A DNA stretch of 64,000 bases, taken from assembly GCA_021731145.1 (NCBI GenBank), contig JAKFXX010000012.1, positions 1-64,000 of the forward strand. The letters are read 5' to 3'. The stretch comes from Gammaproteobacteria bacterium. Its GTDB lineage: Bacteria > Pseudomonadota > Gammaproteobacteria > Ga0077554 > Ga007554. The translations under genes were made by a program, and so were the position numbers. Shown one piece after another: positions 15,040 through 43,412 of this stretch (position 1 is the stretch's first letter; each line of letters begins with the position of its first letter). The notes beneath the pieces are model-generated. The model had not been told where the DNA came from. It ran no database searches and worked only from the letters and a program-made list of their open reading frames with translations.

Positions 15040-15690
15040 ATGAATCCTGGCGCCGTACTGGCGGGTTTGGCTAAATCAGAGGTGCCGAATGTCGTGGTGC
15101 GCCACCTTGGACGCTGCAACTACCTGCCGGTATGGCACGCCATGCAGGAATTCACCGCTATGCGCACGGACGATGCCCCCGATGAGCTGTGGCGGGTGGA
15201 GCACCCGCCGGTGTATACCCAGGGCATGAACGGCAAGCCCGAGCACCTGCTTGATCCAGGCACTATCCCGGTGATCCAGGTGGATCGTGGTGGACAGGTC
15301 ACCTACCACGGGCCGGGGCAGGCCGTGGTCTACGTGCTGGTTGACCTGCGCCGCCGTGGCTGGGGGGTGCGGCAACTGGTTGGTTACATGGAACAGGCGG
15401 TGATCGACTTGCTGGCGGACTATGGCATCCCTGCCCATGCGCGCCGCGACGCCCCCGGTGTGTATGTTGGGAACAGCAAAATCGCAGCCCTCGGACTGCG
15501 TGTGCGCCGTGGATGCAGCTATCACGGCCTGAGCCTCAATGTGGTGATGGATCTGGAGCCATTTCAGCGCATCAACCCCTGTGGCTATGCGGGGATGGAG
15601 GTTACACAGGTGAGCGATTTGGGTGGTCCATGCGATTTTGGCGCAGTGTCTGATGCGCTGCTAAGGCATCTTGGGCGGCATCTGGGGTAA
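15040..15690 (+). CDS. lipB: Octanoyl-(acyl-carrier-protein):protein N-octanoyltransferase
   Basis: LipB transfers octanoate from acyl carrier protein to lipoyl domains, the first step of lipoate synthesis. The 216 residues include the family motif [16 protein letters not shown], the catalytic lysine region [15 protein letters not shown] with SYHGLSLNV, and the catalytic cysteine in INPCGYAG. A perfect TATAAT (14963-14968) upstream could be its -10 element, though no good -35 is seen. It is followed 96 bp later by lipA, which performs the next step. Confidence 0.95.
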
Positions 15691-15786
15691 ACTATGCTGA
15701 TGACAGGTCAGGCTCCACAGATTGAGCATGAGTCATATCTGTTTGAATCCGCGTAAATTCTTCTAACTCAACTCCCAGAAAATCCC

Positions 15787-16755
15787 ATGGCCATATTCGA
15801 TAGCGACGAACTCCCGCCCCTGGCGCCCAACCCTATGAAGGGCGAGTCAAAAGTGTCTCGTATTCCGGTTAAGGTGGTGCCCGCCGCCGCGCCCCTGAGA
15901 AAACCGGCATGGATACGCGCCCGCTCGCCCAACAGTCCCGAGGTTGCACGGCTCAAGGGCGTATTGCGTGAACACAAGTTGCATACCGTGTGCGAAGAGG
16001 CGTCATGCCCGAATCTGGGGGAATGCTTCGGCCACGGCACAGCCACCTTTATGATCATGGGCAATATTTGCACGCGGCGCTGCCCGTTTTGCGATGTCGC
16101 CCACGGCAGGCCCAATGCGCTGGATGCCGATGAGCCGGAGAATCTTGCGCGTACCATTGAGGCGATGGGGCTGCGCTATGTGGTGGTGACCTCGGTGGAC
16201 CGCGACGACCTGCGTGACGGCGGGGCGGGCCACTTCGCCGCCTGCATCCAGGCGATACGCCGCAGGGCGCCGAACACGCGGCTCGAAATTCTTGTGCCCG
16301 ATTTTCGCGGACGCATGGATGTCGCGCTGGAGGTGCTGAACGACAATCCGCCGGATGTTTTCAACCACAACCTGGAAACCGTGGCGCGCCTCTATAAGCA
16401 GGCACGTCCCGGCTCCGATTATGAGTGGTCTCTCAAGCTGCTGCAGCGCTTCAAGGCGGCCCATCCCGCCATCCCTACCAAGTCCGGCGTGATGCTCGGT
16501 CTCGGTGAGACCATCGAGGAAGTTGAACAGGTGATGATGGATTTACGCGCTCACGGCTGCAACATGCTCACCCTTGGCCAATATCTGCAACCCAGCCAAC
16601 ACCACTTGCCTGTGGCGCGCTACGTTACGCCTGATGAGTTTGATCGTCTCGCGGAAACAGGCCGCAAAATGGGCTTTGCCAATGTCGCCAGCGGCCCGAT
16701 GGTGCGCTCTTCCTATCATGCCGATTTACAGGCGGCGGGTGATAAAGTCGTATAG
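15787..16755 (+). CDS. lipA: Lipoyl synthase
   Basis: A radical SAM enzyme that inserts two sulfurs into octanoylated lipoyl domains. The 322 residues contain both cluster motifs: the auxiliary cluster [12 protein letters not shown] (CX4CX5C) and the radical [11 protein letters not shown] (CX3CX2C), plus the C-terminal RSSY serine that ligates the auxiliary cluster. The length matches the family. It works directly after LipB. Confidence 0.97.
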
Positions 16756-20055: not shown

Positions 20056-20332
20056 AATGGAGATTCCCTATGCCGAGGGCGTCGCGGTAACCGAGGATAC
20101 CTTGAGTGTGGATTTGAGCGACGGACGAACCATTTCAGTGCCGCTGGCCTGGTTTCCCAGGCTCTCGTATGCCACTCCAGATGAGCGGAACAACTGGCGA
20201 TTGATCGGCAAGGGTCAGGGCATCCATTGGGAAGACATTGATGAAGACATTAGTGTCGATGACTTGATCGTTGGTAAGGCATCAGGTGAAAGTCAAACTT
20301 CTTTTAAGGCATGGCTAAGCAAGCGCGCTTGA
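20036..20332 (+). CDS. DUF2442 domain protein
   Basis: A 98-residue protein with the DUF2442 features: a strand pair VTEDTLSVDLSDGRTISVPLAWFPRL, then GIHWEDIDEDISVDDLIVG. It overlaps the preceding DUF4160 gene by 20 bp, so the two are co-translated. The small size and coupling suggest an addiction-like pair; this is an inference. The C-terminus (SFKAWLSKRA) is basic. Confidence 0.8.
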   Translation: MGILAIEMEIPYAEGVAVTEDTLSVDLSDGRTISVPLAWFPRLSYATPDERNNWRLIGKGQGIHWEDIDEDISVDDLIVGKASGESQTSFKAWLSKRA

Positions 20333-33340: not shown

Positions 33341-33686
33341 AAAAAACCATCCTTAGGGGCGATTCCATCATGGATAGCATAAGCCAGCAAACTTACAAAT
33401 AGCTTACATATTCAAATTGCTAGCAAAGCACGAGGCAAATATAGCGCTCTTGCAAGTGCTTATCCATGGTAAAAATACCATGATTGCCCTTTATGAACGC
33501 CGTTCTCGTCTGGCTGGTTGCGCTATGAACGGTGCGCCTGAAATGCAGGTGCTTGTATCTGTTGTGAAATAGGCGATGTGCCGTTTCAGCGTCCTGTGAA
33601 GCCCGGTTGTTTGATATTATATGCCTAGTGACTGCCATCTTTCATAGCCCTTGCAACCCGCACCTCGAACCACGAAAATTACACAA
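33341..33686. other. Divergent intergenic region with a small perfect palindrome
   Basis: This 346-bp region separates the divergent BTAD regulator and dnaE. It holds a perfect CATGGTA-AAAA-TACCATG palindrome (33465-33482) and a tandem CTTACA repeat near 33389-33406 (ACTTACAAATAGCTTACATA), both possible regulator sites. A 72-residue minus-strand frame (33420-33638) has no coding character and is not annotated. No terminator or RNA gene is recognised. Confidence 0.35.
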
Positions 33687-36600
33687 ATGACCCCCGGCTT
33701 CGTCCACCTCCATCTCCACACTGAATATTCCCTGGTTGATAGCGTTGTGCGCGTCAAACCGCTGGTGAAGGCGTGCGCTGCTGCCGGTATGCCGGCCTGC
33801 GCGGTGACGGATCAATCCAACCTGTTTGCCATGGTGAAGTTTTACCGTGCGGCCCAGGCGGCGGGCGTGAAGCCTATCATCGGGGTGGATGTGTGGCTGC
33901 ACAATGAGGTGGATCATAACCAGCCGTCGCGCTTGGTGTTGCTGTGCCAGAACCGCGAGGGCTATCTCAACCTCACGCGCCTGGTGTCGCGCAGTTATAT
34001 CGAAGGCCAGTTGCGCAGCATCCCCATGATCCGCAGGGACTGGCTGGAGGGCGCGAGCGATGGGTTGATCGCCTTGTCCGGTGGGCGCGCCGGTGACGTA
34101 GGGCAAGCCCTGCTGGCGGGCAACCGGGGAGCTGCCGAAGCGCTGCTCAATGGCTGGAAAGCGCTGTTTCCCGATCGCTTCTATCTGGAGCTGCAACGCA
34201 GCGGACGCGAACACGAGGAGGATTATCTGCACGACGCCGTTGATCTGGCGCAGGCGCTCGACGTGCCGGTGGTGGCCACCAACGATGTGCGCTTCATCAA
34301 GCCTGAGGATTTTTACGCGCACGAGGCCAAGGTGTGCATCCATGAGGGGCGTGTGCTGGATGACCCGCGCCGCCCGCGCCTGTATTCCGAGCAGCAGTAT
34401 CTGCGCACCCCGCAGGAAATGGCCGAGCTGTTTGCCGATCTTCCCGAGGCGCTGGAAAATACCGTGGAGATCGCGCGCCGCTGCACGCTGGAACTGACGC
34501 TGGGCAAAAACTTCCTGCCCGACTTCCCAGTGCCGGAAGGCATGACCATGGACGCCTATTTCCGCGAGTGCGCGGGCATCGGGCTGGAAAAGCGCCTGGC
34601 TTTCCTGTTCGATACCCAGGCCCCAAAGTTTGCCCAACAGCGTGTTGAGTACGACGAACGGCTGGCGCGCGAGCTAGACGTAATTATCAGCATGGGCTTT
34701 GCCGGTTATTTTTTGATCGTGGCGGATTTTATACGTTGGGCCAAAGAGAACGATGTGCCGGTGGGGCCGGGGCGCGGTTCGGGCGCGGGGTCGCTGGTGG
34801 CCTACGCGCTGGAGATCACGGACCTTGACCCGCTCCGCTATGACCTGCTGTTCGAGCGATTTCTAAACCCCGAGCGTGTCTCGCTGCCGGATTTCGATAT
34901 CGACTTCTGCATGGAGGGCCGCGACCGTGTCATCGAGTATGTGACAGAGCACTACGGACGCGACCGCGTGTCGCAGATCATCACCTACGGCAGCATGGCG
35001 GCCAAGGCCGTGGTGCGCGACGTCGGGCGTGTGCTGGGGCATCCTTACGGCTTCGTCGATCAGATCGCCAAGCTGATCCCCTTCGAGCTAGGCATCACAC
35101 TCGATGATGCACTGGAGAAGGAAGAGACGCTGCGCCGCCGCTATGAGCAGGAAGAGGACGTGCGTGGATTGATCGACCTGGCGCGTTCGCTGGAAGGGTT
35201 GACGCGCAACGCCGGCAAGCATGCGGGAGGCGTAGTGATCGCACCTTCGGCGCTCACCGACTTCACACCGCTCTACTGCGAACAAGGCGCGGCGGGAACG
35301 GTGACGCAATTCGACAAGGACGATGTCGAGGCAGTGGGGCTGGTTAAATTCGACTTCCTGGGATTGCGCACGCTCACCATCATCGACTGGGCGGTGAAGA
35401 ACATCAACCAGGGGCGCGCCACACGCGGTGAAGCGCTGCTGGATATCGTCCGCATCCCGCTGGATGACGCGCCGTCTTTCGCCCTGCTCAAGCGTTGCGC
35501 GACAACGGCAATCTTCCAGCTCGAATCACGCGGCATGAAGGATCTCATCAAACGCCTGCAACCGGACTGCTTCGAAGACATCGTGGCTCTGGTGGCGCTG
35601 TTCCGCCCCGGCCCATTGCAGTCCGGCATGGTGGACGACTTCATCAACCGCAAGCACAAGCGTACCAAGGTGGAATACCCGCACCCCGCGCTGGAGCCGA
35701 TCCTCAAGCCCACCTACGGCGTGATCCTCTATCAGGAGCAGGTGATGCAAATCGCCCAGGTGCTGGCCGGATTCAGTCTGGGCGCCGCCGACCTGCTGCG
35801 CCGCGCCATGGGCAAGAAAAAAGCCGAAGAAATGGCGCAGCAGCGCGCCATTTTTGTGGATGGCGCCAAGAACAACGGCGTTGATGAAAAGATCGCCGCC
35901 TACATCTTCGACCTGATGGAAAAGTTCGCCGGTTACGGCTTCAATAAATCCCATTCGGCGGCGTATGCCTTGCTGTCCTACCAGACCGCCTGGCTCAAGG
36001 CCCACTACCCGGCGGCCTTCATGGCGGCGGTGCTGTCTGCCGATATGGACAACACCGACAAGGTGGTGACGCTGATCGACGAATGCCGCGACATGAAGCT
36101 GACCGTGCTGCCGCCGCACATTAACACCTGCGAATGCGCCTTCACCGTCAGCAATGACAGCACGATTCTATATGGCCTGGGCGCGGTCAAGGGTGCAGGC
36201 AGCGCGGCCATTGAGGGTATCATTGCCGCCCGCAAGCAGGCCCCGTTCCGTGACCTGTTCGATTTTTGCCAGCGTATCGACCTGCGCAAGGCCAACCGGC
36301 GCGTGCTGGAGGCGCTGATTCGTGCCGGTGCGCTTGATGGGCTGGGAGCGGGCCGCGCCACGCTCATGGCCTCGCTCACGGTCGCCACGCAATTGGCCGA
36401 ACAGCATTCGCGTAATGATGCCGCAGGGCAGGAAGACCTGTTCGGTGTTTTCGCGGCACCAGGCAGTGTGAACGAGAGCGAGGCGCATGAAACGCGCTAT
36501 GTCGAAACACCCGAGTGGAATGAAGAGCAGCGTCTCACAGGGGAAAAGGAAACCCTCGGGCTGTACCTCACCGGCCACCCCATCGCACGTTACGAGCACG

Positions 36601-37160
36601 AGCTGGCGCGCTTCATCAGCGCGCGGATTGTCGATCTCAAGCCTGGCCGCGACCAGTCCGTTGTTATCGCCGGCCTGGTGGTGGCCATGCGCGCCATGAT
36701 GAGCCGCAAGGGCGACCGCATGGCCTTCATCACCCTGGACGACCGCAGCGGACGCATCGAGCTGGCGGTGTTTCCCGAAAACTTCCGCCAATACCGCAAC
36801 CTGATCATCAAGGACAAACTGCTGGTAGTGGAAGGCACGGTGAGCGTGGATGAGTATTCCGGCGGATTCAAGATGAGCGCGGACAAGATTTTTGACATTG
36901 ATCAGGCGCGCGAGGCCTATGCCAAACGGTTAGTGATTGATGTCGAAGAGCGCCAGGCGGACAACGGCTTCGTCGGTGAGTTGGCGCAGCGGCTGGCGCC
37001 GTTCCGCGAGGGCGTTTGCCCGGTATGGATTGAATACCACGCACCCACCGCGCGCGCGCAGCTCGCCCTGGGCCAGGAATGGCGCGTTCATCCCAGTGAT
37101 GAACTGCTGCATCGCCTGCAAGAGCTGGCGGGTGAGGGTAGGGTAAGGGTGGTTTATTAG
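33687..37160 (+). CDS. dnaE: DNA polymerase III alpha subunit
   Basis: Replicative polymerase catalytic subunit, 1157 residues from ATG 33687. It has an N-terminal PHP domain (FVHLHLHTEYSLVDS), the C-family palm with the catalytic PDFDIDFCMEGRDRVIEYV motif, fingers, a helix-hairpin-helix region and an OB-fold domain near residue 980-1060 (VVIAGLVVAMRAMMSRKGDRMAFITLDD). The reading frame is open 12 codons further upstream from a TTG, but alignment with E. coli (MSEPRFVHL...) favours ATG 33687. Length is normal. No accA adjoins it as in E. coli; accA lies about 9 kb downstream. Confidence 0.97.
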   Translation: MTPGFVHLHLHTEYSLVDSVVRVKPLVKACAAAGMPACAVTDQSNLFAMVKFYRAAQAAGVKPIIGVDVWLHNEVDHNQPSRLVLLCQNREGYLNLTRLVSRSYIEGQLRSIPMIRRDWLEGASDGLIALSGGRAGDVGQALLAGNRGAAEALLNGWKALFPDRFYLELQRSGREHEEDYLHDAVDLAQALDVPVVATNDVRFIKPEDFYAHEAKVCIHEGRVLDDPRRPRLYSEQQYLRTPQEMAELFADLPEALENTVEIARRCTLELTLGKNFLPDFPVPEGMTMDAYFRECAGIGLEKRLAFLFDTQAPKFAQQRVEYDERLARELDVIISMGFAGYFLIVADFIRWAKENDVPVGPGRGSGAGSLVAYALEITDLDPLRYDLLFERFLNPERVSLPDFDIDFCMEGRDRVIEYVTEHYGRDRVSQIITYGSMAAKAVVRDVGRVLGHPYGFVDQIAKLIPFELGITLDDALEKEETLRRRYEQEEDVRGLIDLARSLEGLTRNAGKHAGGVVIAPSALTDFTPLYCEQGAAGTVTQFDKDDVEAVGLVKFDFLGLRTLTIIDWAVKNINQGRATRGEALLDIVRIPLDDAPSFALLKRCATTAIFQLESRGMKDLIKRLQPDCFEDIVALVALFRPGPLQSGMVDDFINRKHKRTKVEYPHPALEPILKPTYGVILYQEQVMQIAQVLAGFSLGAADLLRRAMGKKKAEEMAQQRAIFVDGAKNNGVDEKIAAYIFDLMEKFAGYGFNKSHSAAYALLSYQTAWLKAHYPAAFMAAVLSADMDNTDKVVTLIDECRDMKLTVLPPHINTCECAFTVSNDSTILYGLGAVKGAGSAAIEGIIAARKQAPFRDLFDFCQRIDLRKANRRVLEALIRAGALDGLGAGRATLMASLTVATQLAEQHSRNDAAGQEDLFGVFAAPGSVNESEAHETRYVETPEWNEEQRLTGEKETLGLYLTGHPIARYEHELARFISARIVDLKPGRDQSVVIAGLVVAMRAMMSRKGDRMAFITLDDRSGRIELAVFPENFRQYRNLIIKDKLLVVEGTVSVDEYSGGFKMSADKIFDIDQAREAYAKRLVIDVEERQADNGFVGELAQRLAPFREGVCPVWIEYHAPTARAQLALGQEWRVHPSDELLHRLQELAGEGRVRVVY

Positions 37161-37178
37161 GGAGCCGCCGATTTATTC

Positions 37179-37266
37179 AATCCGTTCGGGCTGAGCCTGT
37201 CGAAGCCTTTGCTAACTTGTTGATTCACAAAGAGCGCATTTCGACAAGCTCAATGCGAACGGATTT
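37179..37266. repeat. 27-bp imperfect inverted repeat after dnaE
   Basis: The arm at 37179-37205 (beginning AATCCGTTCGGGCTGAGC) is matched in reverse complement at 37240-37266, with about 23 of 27 positions identical. The arm sequence is of the CGTTCGGGCTGAGCCTGTCGAAG type, a repeat I know from many proteobacterial genomes. It probably forms a long cruciform or terminator-like stem. The rest of 37161-37483 has no credible gene. Confidence 0.6.
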
Positions 37267-37483
37267 AATCGGTGTTTTCTTGGCGCTTCTGAAGAAACAA
37301 GGGGTTTCACGGCACGGGGATGGGTTGTTTGACAAGTGCCGGGAAAACGAGCATCTTGCTGGGCGAAATTGGACACGGACACGGTTATGCCCCCGAAGCC
37401 AAGATCCATCACTCCTGTGGTGCATTAGATTTACAGATCAATTTGCGAGATAATCACCTAGCGTTAAAGTCAGGAGACAGTTC

Positions 37484-37693
37484 ATGCAACTCACAGCCGT
37501 TTTAATCCCCGCCCAAGAGGGTGGTTTTGTGGCAATCAACCCCGAAACGGGCACAAGTACTCAAGGCGAATCAATTGAGGAGGCTCTTGCCAATCTGCAA
37601 GAGGCTACCGGGTTATATCTGGAAGAGTTTCCGTTAGCGTCCTACGGTCAGCCCCTCATGACTACGTTTGAGGTTCCTGTCCGTGCCGCCTAG
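37484..37693 (+). CDS. hicB: HicB family antitoxin
   Basis: A 69-residue HicB-type antitoxin: an RNase H-like fold beginning MQLTAVLIPAQEGGFVAINPE, then TQGESIEEALANLQEATGLYLEE and a tail ending TFEVPVRAA. It belongs to the short COG1598-type HicB whose gene precedes hicA. AGGAG lies 8 nt before the ATG. The partner toxin overlaps it by 11 bp but is internally deleted, so HicB may now be an orphan antitoxin. Confidence 0.85.
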   Translation: MQLTAVLIPAQEGGFVAINPETGTSTQGESIEEALANLQEATGLYLEEFPLASYGQPLMTTFEVPVRAA

Positions 37694-37808
37694 CCTGCCG
37701 CATATGTCGGGTGCTGAGGCGATTCGCGCGCTTCAAAAGATTGGTACGTTGTCGGGTGTTCTAAAACAAGCGGGTGTCTCATCTGACGAATTCATGTCAG
37801 TATTGTAA
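37683..37808 (+). pseudogene. hicA: HicA toxin with an internal in-frame deletion
   Basis: From GTG 37683, overlapping the hicB stop, a 41-residue frame reads VPPSLPHMSGAEAIRALQKIG and then continues directly with GTLSGVLKQAGVSSDEFMSV. The first part matches the N-terminus and the second the C-terminus of HicA (COG1724, about 70-75 residues). The central 30 or so residues, including the catalytic histidine of the GSHVIL motif, are missing. The reading frame is preserved, so a peptide may be made, but RNase activity is not expected. Confidence 0.8.
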
Positions 37809-37814
37809 TTTGTG

Positions 37815-37932
37815 GCATAACGTCATTCAAGAGGGACACGTCTTGGCGAGGCACAATAGGTGATGGGTTTCATCAGCGCAGGGGCGTTGCTCTGGCCTCA
37901 TCGTTGGCGTGCCCTTTAATCCTACGTTAGAT
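37815..37932 (+). other. Integron attC-like recombination site
   Basis: This 118-bp imperfect palindrome has attC architecture. The outer boxes are GCATAAC (37815-37821) and GTTAGAT (37926-37932, fits GTTRRRY), pairing as TAACGT/ACGTTA. After a short unpaired spacer, TTCAAGAGGGACACG (37826-37840) pairs over 12 bp with CGTGCCCTTTAA (37908-37919), leaving exactly three single extrahelical bases, all on one arm. The terminal loop contains a further hairpin TGATG-GGTTT-CATCA. It starts 6 bp after the hicA stop, and the next gene starts 1 bp after it, as in cassette arrays. Confidence 0.75.
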
Positions 37933-37933
37933 A

Positions 37934-38215
37934 ATGAGCAGCTTAACTGAAAGAATTATTATCAGGGGCGTTACCGAGGACGGCAGAAAATTCCGTCCCA
38001 GTGATTGGGCTGAGCGCATCACCACCGCAGTTGGCAAAGTCGGCGCTGGCCGCCGCATTGAATTTCATCCAAAGGTCAGCATGATCACCATCGAGGGGAT
38101 CAGTTGCGTGCTGGTGGACAAGAGCCTGGAGCAAGACGAACCGCTGGTGTTTGTTTTTCTGATGAACTTCGCCAAAAGCAACCGCCTGCAAGTTGAAGAT
38201 TTCCAGCAGGGATAA
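37934..38215 (+). CDS. DUF3579 domain protein
   Basis: A 93-residue protein matching DUF3579 (IIIRGVTEDGRKFRPSDWAERI, CVLVDKSLEQDEPLVFVFLMNFAKSNRLQVED). The family is small, cytoplasmic and uncharacterised, and I associate it mainly with betaproteobacteria. Its ATG starts 1 bp after the attC-like site, where a cassette gene would begin. I found no second attC after it, so it may be a chromosomal gene or a cassette with a decayed site. Confidence 0.8.
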   Translation: MSSLTERIIIRGVTEDGRKFRPSDWAERITTAVGKVGAGRRIEFHPKVSMITIEGISCVLVDKSLEQDEPLVFVFLMNFAKSNRLQVEDFQQG

Positions 38216-38278
38216 AAACGGTCTTGATGCGTAGTAGTCGCTATCCAATCTGACAGCCAAAAAAATTCGCCCCCCCTC

Positions 38279-38307
38279 TTGACAACCCTACAGCCTCTAT
38301 TTATATG
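38279..38307 (+). promoter_or_regulatory. Sigma-70-like promoter for the SpvB/Rhs gene
   Basis: TTGACA (38279-38284), a 17-bp spacer, then TATATG (38302-38307): a perfect -35 and a 4-of-6 -10 at optimal spacing. It is placed about 230 bp before the likely ATG at 38540. A C-run (38269-38276) and a G-run (38402-38411) flank the leader. No ORF of note lies in 38216-38419. Confidence 0.6.
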
Positions 38308-38539
38308 CTCAACCCGCGCCTGTCGAATCGCACTAAAAACAACCAGATAACACGTATCTCCCATGCTACTTTAAGCGTGCTCAAGGTGGCATGGGTAGTT
38401 ACCCGGGGGGGGGTAAAACATGTCAATAACAATAATAACCGCCTGCGCCTTTGGCGCGGCTATCGTACTCATTGTCCGCAACATCCTGGTTCGGCCACCG
38501 GTCAACGCTTTCTCCCGTTTCAGGCGCGTAGGGTGCGCC

Positions 38540-39682
38540 ATGCGCACCATCGTCCGGACGCCGCGACTGTTCCCGTTGCTTGCGCTGTCCGTCCTTGTCG
38601 CCCCCGCTTTTGCCGCCACCAGCAACGTCGGCGCCACCGCGGGCAGCTTCGTCGTCGGCCCCACCGGCGCGGCGGCGTATACCATGCCCATCGCCGTGCC
38701 GCCCGGCGTCAACGGCATGCAGCCCGCCCTCGCGCTCGCCTACAACAGCCAGGGCGGCAACGGTCTGGCCGGCATGGGCTGGGGCTTGGCGGGATTGTCC
38801 GCCATCCACCGCTGCGCCGCCACCATCGAACAGGACGGCTACAAGGGCGGTGTCAACCTCGACGCTGACGACCGCCTCTGCCTCGATGGCCAACGCCTTG
38901 TTCCCCTCAACGGCAGCACTTACTGGAGCGCCAGCGAATACCGCACCGAGATCGAAACCTACACCCGCATCACACCTTTTAACGGCGGCTACCGCGCCTG
39001 GACCAAAGCCGGCCAGATCATCGACTACGGCGCCACCGACAACGCCCGCCAGCAGGGTTCCACCGGCACCGTCATCAGTTGGGCCATGAACCAGGCCCAG
39101 GACAGATCGGGCAATTACCTCGCCGCCACCTACACCAAAAACCCCGCCACCGGCGAGCACTACCCCCAGCGCATCGACTACACCGGCAACACCAACACCG
39201 GCCTTGCCGCCAACCGCGCCGTGGTGTTTGGCTATGAAAGCCGTTCGGATATTGAAACCGCCTGGGTCGGTGGTGCAAAAACACAAACCGGCGTGCGCAT
39301 GAATCGGGTGCAGACCTTTTTCAGTGCGGTGCTGGTGCGTGAATATCGGCTGGCGTATGACGTGAGCACGGCAACGGGGCGCTCGCGGTTGGTGAGTTTG
39401 CAGGAGTGTGCGGGGGATGGGGTGTGTTTAGCGGGAACGCAGGTGGGGTGGCAGGGTAGCGGGGCGGGTCTAGATGTCCATAGGCAGTGGGGTGCCGGCC
39501 ATACGAATTCCGACCAATTAGGTGATTTCAACGGTGACGGCAAAACCGACGTCATCCAGTTTTACAATGGTAACTCCTATGTTTGGATAAATATCGGAAC
39601 TTCCCACGACCTCTTAACCTCTACCACCACCGCCCTCGTCACCCAAACCACGATCACCTACAAACCCCTCACCGACAACTAG
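38540..39682 (+). pseudogene. SpvB/Rhs polymorphic toxin, N-terminal part (frameshifted)
   Basis: This is the N-terminal SpvB-type segment of a large secreted toxin. ATG 38540 starts a good signal peptide (MRTIVRTPRLFPLLALSVLVAPAFA); an upstream ATG at 38420 is open but would bury it. The SpvB domain is seen as YTMPIAVPPGVNGMQPALALAYNSQGGNG and GMGWGLAGLSAIHRC, followed by a single calcium-binding-type VCBS repeat (LGDFNGDGKTDVIQFY). The frame ends at TAG 39680-39682 just after TITYKPLTDN. Removing one base (T39680) restores the reading frame into the next ORF (DNSLTQGDTKENTAAYPL), so both ORFs were one gene. Confidence 0.85.
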
Positions 39683-39728
39683 CCTGACACAGGGGGACAC
39701 CAAGGAAAACACCGCCGCCTACCCGCTG

Positions 39729-42700
39729 ATGGATCTGCAAACCCCGATCTACGTCGTGGCCTCGCACAGCGCCAGCAACGGCATCGGCGGGCTGAACACC
39801 GCCGTCTACACCTACGCAGGCGCCAAGGCACACCAGACCGGGCGCGGTTTCCTGGGCTTCCGTAGCGTCACGGCCACCGGGCCAGACGGCATCAAGACCA
39901 TCAGCTATTACCATCAAGGCTATCCTTACACCGGCCTGCCCCAGCAGGTCGACGTCCAGCAGCCCAATGGCGCACTGCTGCGCCGCTCGGTCAATACCTG
40001 GACAGCGCACAACCTTGGCGGCGGGCGGTATTTTCCCTATGTTGCGAGCAGCACAGAGTTCGCCTGGGAGCTCAACGGCGCGGCTCTACCCACCGTCACC
40101 ACCACCGGCAGCTACGACCTGTTGGGCAACCCCACGCAGATCACGGCGGCGGCCAGCGACGGCCACACCAGCAGCACCGCCAATATCTACAACAACGACA
40201 CCACCAACTGGCTGCTCGGCCAGTTGACCCAGGCGCAGGTCACCCGCACTCTGCCCGGCGGCCAGAGCCAGACGCGCACCTCCACGTTTGCCTATGACAC
40301 CGCCGGACGGCTCCTCCGCGATGTCATCGAGCCGAATACCGTCTTCACCCTCGCCACCGACTACGGCTACGACGCCTACGGGCACCGCAACCGCGCCACC
40401 GTGAGCGGCGCGGACATCGCCACGCGCGCCACCGCCACCGACTACCTCACCAGCCTCGCTGACCCGTATCCGCAGATCCGCACCACCAACGCCCTGGGCC
40501 ACACCGAAGTCCAGACACTGGATGCCCGCTTCGGTGCGCCCGTCAGCCTCACCGGCCCCAACGGCCTCACCACCGCCTGGGCCTACGACGGCTTCGGTCG
40601 CAAAGTGCAGGAAAACCGCGCCGACGGCACGACCACCACCTGGAGCCTGGCGTGGTGCCCCTCCGCCACCTGTCCATCGAGCGCCCGTTATCTGGCCACC
40701 AGCCAGTCCAGCGGCAGCGCCCCTGTAAGCGTCTATTACGACCTCCTCGGCCGCGAAGTGCGCAGCCATAGCCAGGGCTTCAACGGCCAGGCGGTCTACA
40801 AAGATACCCAGTACGACATCCTGGGCCGTCTGCAATACGCCTCCCAACCCTATTTCGCTGGCGGCGCGGCCTACTGGGGCGTCATGTCCTACGACCTGCT
40901 CGGCCGCCCCGTCACCGAAACCGCGCCCAGCGGCGCCACCACCCGCACCAGCTACCAGGGCCTGACCACCGTCGTCACCAACGCCCTCAACCAGACCGCC
41001 ACCCGCGTCAAAAACAGCCAGGGCCAGCTCATCCAGTCCATCGACGCCCTGGGCAGTCTTACCCGCTACAGCTACGACCCCTTTGGCAATCTCACCCAGA
41101 CTATCGACCCCAAATCCAACATCGCCACGCTCACTTACGACATCCGCAGTCGCAAGCGCAGCATGACAGACCCCGACATGGGCTACTGGGAATACAAATA
41201 CAACGTCCTCGGCGAACTCATCTACCAGATGGACGCCAAGAGCCAGGTCGTCACGATAGAATACGACCTGCTCGGCCGCATGACCAAGCGCGTCGAAAAA
41301 GAAGGCATCAGCACCTGGGCGTATGACACCGCCGCCATGGGCAAAGGCAAACTCGCCCAGGTCACCGGCCCCAATGGCTACAAACAGACCCCTGTCTACG
41401 ACGCCCTCAGCCGCCCGGTGCGCGTATCCACCTTCATCGACAGCGCCACTGCCCCCTATGACATGGACACCGGCTACGATGCCTATGGCCGTGTCGGCAG
41501 CGTCGCCTATCCCACAGTCGGAAACAGCCGCTTCACTGTCTACAACACCTATAACCCCCAAGGCCACCTCAGCGAGGTCAAAAACGCCGCCACCGGCCAA
41601 AGCTACTGGAAGACCGACGTGATGGACGCCGGTGGCCACCTCCTTGCCGACACCTTCGGCAACGGCCTCGGCACCGTGCGCAGCTACAACCCCGCCAGCG
41701 GCTTCCTCGAAGCCATCAACACCGGTGCCACCATGCAGAGCCTGCGCTACACCTACGACAGTATCGGTAACCTCACCCGGCGCGCCGACGCCATCAACAG
41801 CGTCACCGAAACCTTTGCCTACGACAGCCTCAACCGCCTGACCTCCGTCAGCGGCCCCGCGCCCAAAACCTACGCCTACGACAGCATCGGCAACATCACC
41901 AGCAAATCCGATGTCGGCACCTACACCTACGGCGCCAAGCCCCACGCCGTCACAGCCACGGCGGGCGCGGCCAACGCCAGCTACACCTACGACGCCAACG
42001 GCAACATGACCGGCGGTAATGGCCGTGCCATTGCTTACACCTCCTTCAACTTGCCGACGAGCATCACCAAAGGGAGCAGCACCCTGACCTTTGCCTACGA
42101 CGCCAACCACGCCCGCATCCAGCAAGCCGGCCCGGATGGCGTTACCGTCTACCTCAGCCCGCGTTGGGACAGCGGCACCCACTATGAGAAGACCACTAAA
42201 TCCCACGGCAGTGTCGAACACACCCACTACATCTACGCCGGCAACACCCCGGTCGCCCTCTACACCGTAAAAAACACCAGCGTTACCCCGGTGGTCCGCT
42301 ACCTGCACAAAGACCACCTCGGCTCCATCGACACCATCACCGACGAGACCGGCCAGGTCGTCGAACGCCTCTCCTACGACGCCTTCGGCAAACGCCGCAA
42401 CACCAACGGCACCGACGGCCCCATCACCGCCCAGACCACCCACCACGGCTATACCGGCCATGAAATGCACGATGAGGTGGGCCTGACCAACATGAACGGG
42501 TGCTTCTACGACCCCAGCCTGGCCCGCTTCACCCAAGCCGACCCGTACATCCAGAACCCCACCAACCTGCAAGACCTCAACCGCTACAGCTATGTCAACA
42601 ATAATCCGTTGAAGTATGCTGACCCGAGCGGGTATAAGAAGTTTTGGAAGAATATCTCGTGGACGGAGATACGCGGGGCGATCAATGTTGCGGCGGCGGT

Positions 42701-43412
42701 GGCTATCACTGCTTTTTGTCCGTATGCTTGTGGTGGTGCGGGACTCAGCTTCTTGCCCAGCGCCCAAAACGATTTAAGCGGCAGAAAATATTCAGGCTCT
42801 ACAGACCCGGCCCTCATGATTCAAGGAGGTGTCAATTACGGGGCAGGCAATCCGGAGTGGCAGCTTAGCGCGAATTTTTACCCTGACAGCTTCAACATGT
42901 CGAATGGTGGTATACCGCTGTTTGGCTATCAGTCGAACAATAATAACCGCTTCCCGGATTATGATGGCCCTGGGGTTCAGCATATTTTCGGGGCGGTAGT
43001 CCCTGTTGTGGGGGCTATTCTCAGGACGGCTGTGCCGAGACTGGCAAGCTGGGTCAGGGGGCTGTTTGTGCGCTCCGAGGCCGCAGGAGAAGGGGCGGCG
43101 GCGGAGAGTTTGACGGTTGATGTTGTAAAGGGGGGCGGCGCCTTAACGGAAGTAGCCGATGCGACTGTTGCTGGTTCTCGCTATGCGAACATCGCCGCGA
43201 ATCTTAGTGCACGGGAATTTCAATCGACACTTGTTTCAAATGGATACAGGGTGGTCAAACAAACGGTCGGACCGAATGGTCCCGTGACTATTCTTAGTAA
43301 TGGTGAAAAAACATATACGATTTACACGGCAACCAGCACGCAATCTGTAAGCGTCCAAGTAACAAATTCTGCCGGGGAAATCTTGAGCAAGATTCGCCTA
43401 GGTGGGCCGTGA
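39729..43412 (+). CDS. SpvB/Rhs polymorphic toxin, Rhs-repeat and C-terminal toxin part
   Basis: The continuation (1227 residues from the first ATG) of the gene broken at 39680. It contains many YD/Rhs repeats (for example YDAYGHRNRATV, YDLLGRPVTETAPSG, YSYDPFGNLTQ) that should form a cocoon-like shell, then the Rhs core (HLGSIDTITDETGQVVERLSYDAFGKRR; GYTGHEMHDEVGLTNMNGCFYDPSLARF) ending near residue 966 at YADPSG. The last 260 residues are variable: two hydrophobic segments and a terminal domain of about 80 residues (from SRYANIAANLSAREFQ, with SNGEKTYTIYTATSTQS) that I do not recognise as a known toxin. A 194-residue gene follows, likely its immunity protein. Confidence 0.85.
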   Translation: MDLQTPIYVVASHSASNGIGGLNTAVYTYAGAKAHQTGRGFLGFRSVTATGPDGIKTISYYHQGYPYTGLPQQVDVQQPNGALLRRSVNTWTAHNLGGGRYFPYVASSTEFAWELNGAALPTVTTTGSYDLLGNPTQITAAASDGHTSSTANIYNNDTTNWLLGQLTQAQVTRTLPGGQSQTRTSTFAYDTAGRLLRDVIEPNTVFTLATDYGYDAYGHRNRATVSGADIATRATATDYLTSLADPYPQIRTTNALGHTEVQTLDARFGAPVSLTGPNGLTTAWAYDGFGRKVQENRADGTTTTWSLAWCPSATCPSSARYLATSQSSGSAPVSVYYDLLGREVRSHSQGFNGQAVYKDTQYDILGRLQYASQPYFAGGAAYWGVMSYDLLGRPVTETAPSGATTRTSYQGLTTVVTNALNQTATRVKNSQGQLIQSIDALGSLTRYSYDPFGNLTQTIDPKSNIATLTYDIRSRKRSMTDPDMGYWEYKYNVLGELIYQMDAKSQVVTIEYDLLGRMTKRVEKEGISTWAYDTAAMGKGKLAQVTGPNGYKQTPVYDALSRPVRVSTFIDSATAPYDMDTGYDAYGRVGSVAYPTVGNSRFTVYNTYNPQGHLSEVKNAATGQSYWKTDVMDAGGHLLADTFGNGLGTVRSYNPASGFLEAINTGATMQSLRYTYDSIGNLTRRADAINSVTETFAYDSLNRLTSVSGPAPKTYAYDSIGNITSKSDVGTYTYGAKPHAVTATAGAANASYTYDANGNMTGGNGRAIAYTSFNLPTSITKGSSTLTFAYDANHARIQQAGPDGVTVYLSPRWDSGTHYEKTTKSHGSVEHTHYIYAGNTPVALYTVKNTSVTPVVRYLHKDHLGSIDTITDETGQVVERLSYDAFGKRRNTNGTDGPITAQTTHHGYTGHEMHDEVGLTNMNGCFYDPSLARFTQADPYIQNPTNLQDLNRYSYVNNNPLKYADPSGYKKFWKNISWTEIRGAINVAAAVAITAFCPYACGGAGLSFLPSAQNDLSGRKYSGSTDPALMIQGGVNYGAGNPEWQLSANFYPDSFNMSNGGIPLFGYQSNNNNRFPDYDGPGVQHIFGAVVPVVGAILRTAVPRLASWVRGLFVRSEAAGEGAAAESLTVDVVKGGGALTEVADATVAGSRYANIAANLSAREFQSTLVSNGYRVVKQTVGPNGPVTILSNGEKTYTIYTATSTQSVSVQVTNSAGEILSKIRLGGP

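Follow-up and report, generated by a model that had tools for sequence, protein, structure and literature searches.

We analysed a window of DNA, by which the whole stretch of 64,000 nucleotides is meant, lying on contig C20 of a genome of 2.89 Mb in 47 contigs (G000). The genomes G001, G002 and G003, the three found of the same genus, served as the congeners for comparison. Two covariance models of attC sites were used, R1 being built from four G000 sites with the window site included, and R2 from 22 sites (119-121 bases) of the array in G003 with no G000 sequence in it. Between dnaE and a DUF3579 gene, the window carries a cassette with a hicB-like gene, a shortened hicA frame and an attC site. 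The features of the locus are:

33651..37160, + strand: dnaE, DNA polymerase III alpha, the chromosomal upstream neighbour (NF004226, 1601 bits)
37161..37384, + strand: resident sequence from dnaE to the insertion, its final ~60 bases aligning with G001-G003 as far as the G of G^TT (BLAST, junction reading)
37385..37926, + strand: integron gene cassette, 542 bp, from the TT of GTTATGC to the G of GTTAGAT (empty site in 3/3 congeners)
37385..37390, + strand: cassette 5' end TTATGC, complement of R'' GCATAAC (7/7 with the shared G)
37484..37693, + strand: hicB-like antitoxin gene, 69 aa, intact (weak Pfam matches; 97-100% identical copies)
37683..37808, + strand: hicA remnant, 41 aa, 31 codons missing in frame (alignments with full-length relatives)
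37815..37932, + strand: attC site as it now stands, from R'' to the resident R' (models R1 and R2)
37825..37842, + strand: L'' arm with three extrahelical bases at 37828, 37832 and 37836 (sequence, pair table)
37906..37920, + strand: L' arm (sequence, pair table)
37926..37932, + strand: R' GTTAGAT, its G the last cassette base and TTAGAT the chromosomal target (TTAGATAATG in the cassette-free G001-G003)
37934..38215, + strand: DUF3579 gene (PF12112), 93 aa, the downstream neighbour (Pfam, 2.3e-30)

The DUF3579 protein is 92-95% identical in G001-G003. The consensus scan of positions 37100-38350 gave no promoter-like site on the + strand, one on the - strand (0.7 expected) and five terminator-like sites (1.6 expected). 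Directly after dnaE, at 37161-37290, an inverted-repeat-like stretch (CCGTTCGGGCTGAGCCTGTCGAAGCC ... GCATTTCGACAAGCTCAATGCGAACGG) was observed that the alignments with the three congeners mostly skip, and beyond the DUF3579 gene (38420-43412) two ORFs of 420 and 1227 aa resemble a split Rhs/YD-repeat protein.

Anatomy of the attC site and its cassette

The site consists of R'' (GCATAAC, 37815-37821), an unpaired spacer, an L helix with single bases on its 5' arm, a variable loop and R' (GTTAGAT, 37926-37932), as read in the window sequence. The L''/L' helix has 15 pairs and leaves C37828, A37832 and A37836 single, both in the sequence and in the pair table of the four G000 sites, which is the R''-L''-L'-R' architecture of attC sites with extrahelical bases on the L'' arm. 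The attC-like site proposed in the initial annotation is real, its R box coordinates being exact and the three single L''-arm bases confirmed in the sequence, and the spacings given there were also right, with the stop of the hicA frame (37808) 6 bp upstream and the start of the DUF3579 ORF (37934) 1 bp downstream. Folding energy by itself is weak evidence for an attC site, as z was -1.98 on either strand and 8/200 and 9/200 shuffles were equally stable. Covariation within the sets of long attC sites (four in G000, 22 in G003) was uninformative, and the Rfam scan of the window at gathering scores gave no match.

The limits of the cassette were set by comparison with its empty site. All three congeners carry GGACACGG^TTAGATAATG uninterrupted between dnaE and the DUF3579 gene, their spacer ending in GGACACGGTTAGATAATG; the left flank in the window is like that of the congeners up to GGTTA and continues with TGCCCCCG, and the right flank opens with GTTAGATAATG. 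With a cut at G^TT at either end, the cassette measures 542 bp (37385-37926), and the crossover would lie between 37926 and 37927. Comparison with relatives lacking the segment, which the initial annotation had proposed, revealed a precise insertion at G^TT against each of G001, G002 and G003, that is, a secondary (attG) site with insertion at GTT outside attI and attC and an empty site in 3/3 relatives. A 5' end complementary to R'' is expected of a cassette closed on itself. Here the start had been fixed by the empty site, and TTATGC complements R'' at every position, giving 7/7 with the G. In the G003 array, the agreement between the 5' end of a cassette and its own R'' summed to 163 over 26 cassettes (12/26 at 7/7), against a mean of 146.2 under shuffling, and 0/20000 shuffles reached 163.

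A different end, GCGTTAAAG at 37461-37469, had earlier been suggested for a cassette of about 460 bp. It was rejected because the empty site gives 37385 and because the sequence to the left of GCGTTAAAG is common to other hicBA copies; it lies inside the cassette, in the leader of hicB.

The hicBA pair of the initial annotation stood in part. The hicB gene is intact, with Pfam matches below the cut-off (DUF7387, 2.4e-5; HicB_lk_antitox, 0.062), and the copies of it in cassettes of G001, G002 and G007 are 97-100% identical. HicA is shortened by 31 codons, the alignments with full-length relatives revealing an in-frame deletion of 93 bases with its junction near 37736-37738 and the GSH motif lost. 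The scan of this frame for PF07927 gave no match; two full-length HicA relatives were scanned and both scored above the cut-off, and hicA is full length in all three genomes that carry the copies. The GSH motif is important for HicA, and as the window lacks a full HicA with GSH, the loss of 31 codons including this motif means that the pair has probably ceased to function as a toxin-antitoxin system.

The copies in G001, G002 and G007 are probably the records L132, L131 and L130 and not additional ones. L130 and L131 start at GTTATGCC like the window cassette, with differing left flanks, and L132 has a different start without GTTATGCC. An array copy of the window hicBA cassette was not found in G000-G007. 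On contig C65 of G002 (about 3430-3640 of L131), a repeat with inverted ends has seemingly entered the 3' portion of the hicBA cassette and split its attC.

The attC family and the integrase of the genus

The covariance-model check suggested for the site was made with R2, which is trained on array sites of a genuine integron in a sister species, and it returned one strong match in the 64-kb window (37817-37933, 102.6 bits, E 1.9e-29); the runner-up, the sole other match at E up to 10, scored 8.8 bits. The counts obtained with R1 are lower bounds because only 150 first-look candidates were scored per genome (of 915-1446; 150/1221 in G000). At E up to 1, R1 matched at least 47 sites in the four genomes of the genus in all, with at least eight in G000, at least six in G001, at least five in G002 and at least 28 in G003. 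Among the matches listed, seven places in G000 lie outside the window, and a DNA search of this genome with positions 37440-37940 found seven places, namely the window and six that share the attC part only. Outside the genus, two of seven genomes (G004-G009 and G054) were matched by R1, both from one genus of the family.

Contig C9 of G003 carries 27 R1 matches at 7778-36545, all on the - strand, and intI on the + strand at 38182-39123, and this array with its intI is a classical chromosomal integron. In three 62-bp attC sites of the array the L helix persists, its three single bases included, with A-T pairs now G-C. Five shorter array sites were folded and three of them show the L helix, those at 20236 and 19316 being without the attC shape; the single long G003 site that was folded has two single bases, compared with three in the window site.

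An IntI of 338 aa is encoded on contig C30 of G000 (TIGR02249, 492.6 bits; cut-off 265), with a frame that is open throughout, and it is the sole G000 match above the cut-off. IntI proteins above this cut-off were found in all eight genomes G000-G007 and in none of the 14 control genomes. Both an intI gene and related attC sites, for which the initial annotation had advised a search, are thus present elsewhere in the G000 genome. The surroundings of this intI match G001-G003 as far as the intI-adjacent region, the expected place of attI, and R1 gave no attC among the candidates scored on C30. Transposase-like fragments were observed beyond intI on the side expected for a cassette array (L015, about 15150-16350).

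At the window site, attC is not adjoined by intI as in a complete integron. The portion of PMC12690207 cited here names attC sites without a nearby integrase CALIN or SALIN, a lone attC being a SALIN. The window site is a lone attC, and hence a SALIN rather than a CALIN. Clustering of at least two attC sites without intI, as in a CALIN, was not found, as one of the at least eight R1 matches in G000 lies on C20 and R2 finds one attC in the window. The initial annotation had allowed that the site might be part of a CALIN; in the usual sense of that term it is not, being the single attC on this contig among the R1 matches listed. Further G000 contigs also have attC sites without intI, as would suit a former integron array between dnaE and the DUF3579 gene that decayed to one cassette; however, the flanks are joined cassette-free in 3/3 congeners and all four genomes share a conserved intI neighbourhood located elsewhere, which makes such a leftover very improbable.

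Lone cassettes at other places and their origin

Ten off-array places were compared with congeners, of which two were resolved by alignment and one by eye; the comparison left out G000 C2 and C31 (contig ends), G002 C52 and C51:34928, and G001 C21. A cassette of 662 bp in G002, carrying a gene of the PsiE family (PF06146), lies at AG^TTAA in the stop codon of ilvA, which has changed from TAA to TAG, and the IlvA protein therefore keeps its end. This site is empty in 3/3 congeners (G000, G001, G003), and the 5' end of the cassette and its R'' agree at 7/7. When the locus is aligned with G000 and G003, GTTA is covered twice, a four-base overlap identical to that in the window.

The place resolved by eye is on contig C12 of G000, where a stretch delimited at 732 bp between fabF and pabB, about 23 bp before the pabB frame, carries an addiction-module antitoxin gene (TIGR02574, PF09720). 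G^TT stands at the matching point in G001 and G003, G002 being too different. The BLAST alignments end at least 12 bases from the junction and the spacers have diverged, and the 7/7 agreement of this cassette is not independent because its ends were chosen by eye. In G003 the pabB ORF opens with TTG (L106, 1477), for which G000 has TAG (L021).

The hicBA copy in G002 starts at GTTATGCC after an ORF read as folD; here G000, G001 and G003 carry other sequence without a second hicB, and the spacer is too diverged for a junction. The place on G000 C3 has repeats on both sides and an attC remnant is also found in G003, and it is possibly an older insertion shared with G003 C7. The remnant on G003 C7 (L120) is attC-like and stands where G000 C3 (L022) has a toxin-antitoxin-like cassette between repeats. 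The place on G000 C9 has divergent congener matches only (the longest 1000 bp at 71%), that on G000 C1 has a flank with 90% similarity to a G003 array cassette, and the flanks of those on C41, G001 C6 and G003 C9:123089 were found in no congener.

As GTTA stands at both ends of the cassette, a short target duplication is formally possible, and with related copies scattered across contigs the site could be read as an ordinary palindromic repeat of dispersed type, or a MITE, with no more than a likeness to attC. However, the same family makes up the array adjoining intI in G003, the inserted bodies differ (hicBA, psiE, antitoxin), and the 5' end agrees with R'' at 7/7 at both aligned places, and we give this reading hardly any credence.

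We consider it highly probable that the 542-bp cassette was inserted exactly at G^TT between dnaE and the DUF3579 gene, likely by the IntI encoded elsewhere in the genome. The lone cassette at a secondary site, put forward in the initial annotation, is supported by the match to the attC model, the empty site in 3/3 congeners and the presence of intI and attC sites elsewhere in the genome. GWT is the target rule for attG sites. The rule for secondary sites is given as GNT/GTTRRRY in an excerpt of PMC10127599, and integron recombination is described as using the attC bottom strand, with extrahelical bases setting the strand choice, in an excerpt of PMC2727003.

From these features of the sequence we infer recombination of the attC bottom strand by the resident IntI. 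The cassette would have been excised as a circle, to judge by its anatomy, and its folded attC bottom strand would have been joined by IntI to the chromosomal GTT as an attG-type secondary site, after the lineage had parted from the three congeners. The hicB gene is predicted to be co-transcribed with the adjacent genes or expressed from its own leader, no functional toxin being present, and the loss in hicA would be expected to make the cassette harmless. With the insertion 7 bp ahead of the DUF3579 start codon, this gene is predicted to have acquired a new 5' untranslated region.

Direct traces of IntI action were not seen, and a foreign IntI, or the transfer of a copy already inserted, would have produced an identical sequence. 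Another integrase, foreign or former, may thus have inserted the cassette, or homologous exchange may have brought the inserted copy from an unsampled relative, with the resident IntI uninvolved. The presence of hicBA cassettes in other genomes of the family and the lack of an attC match among the candidates scored on the intI contig C30 would fit such a course, but the window attC belongs to the family of the integron of the genus itself and a full-length IntI is present in G000, and we regard it as unlikely.

The gene-edge positions of the cassettes, 7 bp ahead of a start codon, at a codon that remains a stop and about 23 bp before the pabB frame, may be viewed together. Tentatively, and with more doubt than confidence, the integron of the genus may act as a genome-wide exporter, its IntI putting single cassettes, several of them toxin-antitoxin, at G^TT on the edges of housekeeping genes, where host transcription could use them and the toxin would be free to decay, so that a genome without an array beside intI would keep a dispersed set of cassettes. 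Cassette insertion outside integrons is known largely from the class 1 integrase, plasmids and laboratory hosts. The worthwhile part of the present analysis is the natural before/after pairs (two by alignment, one by eye) from genomes that encode an IntI themselves; as these lie in one genus, they allow a direct comparison of target choice, of the effects on adjacent genes and of what becomes of toxin-antitoxin cargo away from the array.

Comparison with known systems

Insertion of a single cassette at a secondary site is already known, and we do not claim that these before/after pairs are unpublished. Recchia and Hall reportedly described in 1995 single cassettes at secondary sites on plasmids, such as aadB in RSF1010. 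The window resembles that case in having one cassette precisely at a secondary site, whereas here the site is chromosomal, the cargo is hicB/hicA and the attC is of a chromosomal integron family. The window site is like a SALIN or CALIN in having one attC and no intI nearby; it differs in that the insertion is resolved by empty sites and intI is found elsewhere in the genome. In Xanthomonas genomes, clusters of attC sites at several loci away from intI are reported in the part of PMC12444791 that we cite.

Sedentary chromosomal integrons with toxin-antitoxin cassettes are described in an extract of PMC11023631. They share with the present case the attC family of an array, here that of G003, and cargo of the toxin-antitoxin type; in contrast, the window cassette lies outside the array and its toxin gene has an internal deletion. 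Insertion at attG sites outside the integron was obtained in the experiments of Loot et al. (2024, Nat Microbiol), as described in PMC12444791 and PMC12901181. As in those experiments, a cassette with its attC occupies a chromosomal site that is not part of an integron; the window and its relatives differ in offering before/after pairs that arose naturally, in a lineage whose chromosome encodes an IntI.
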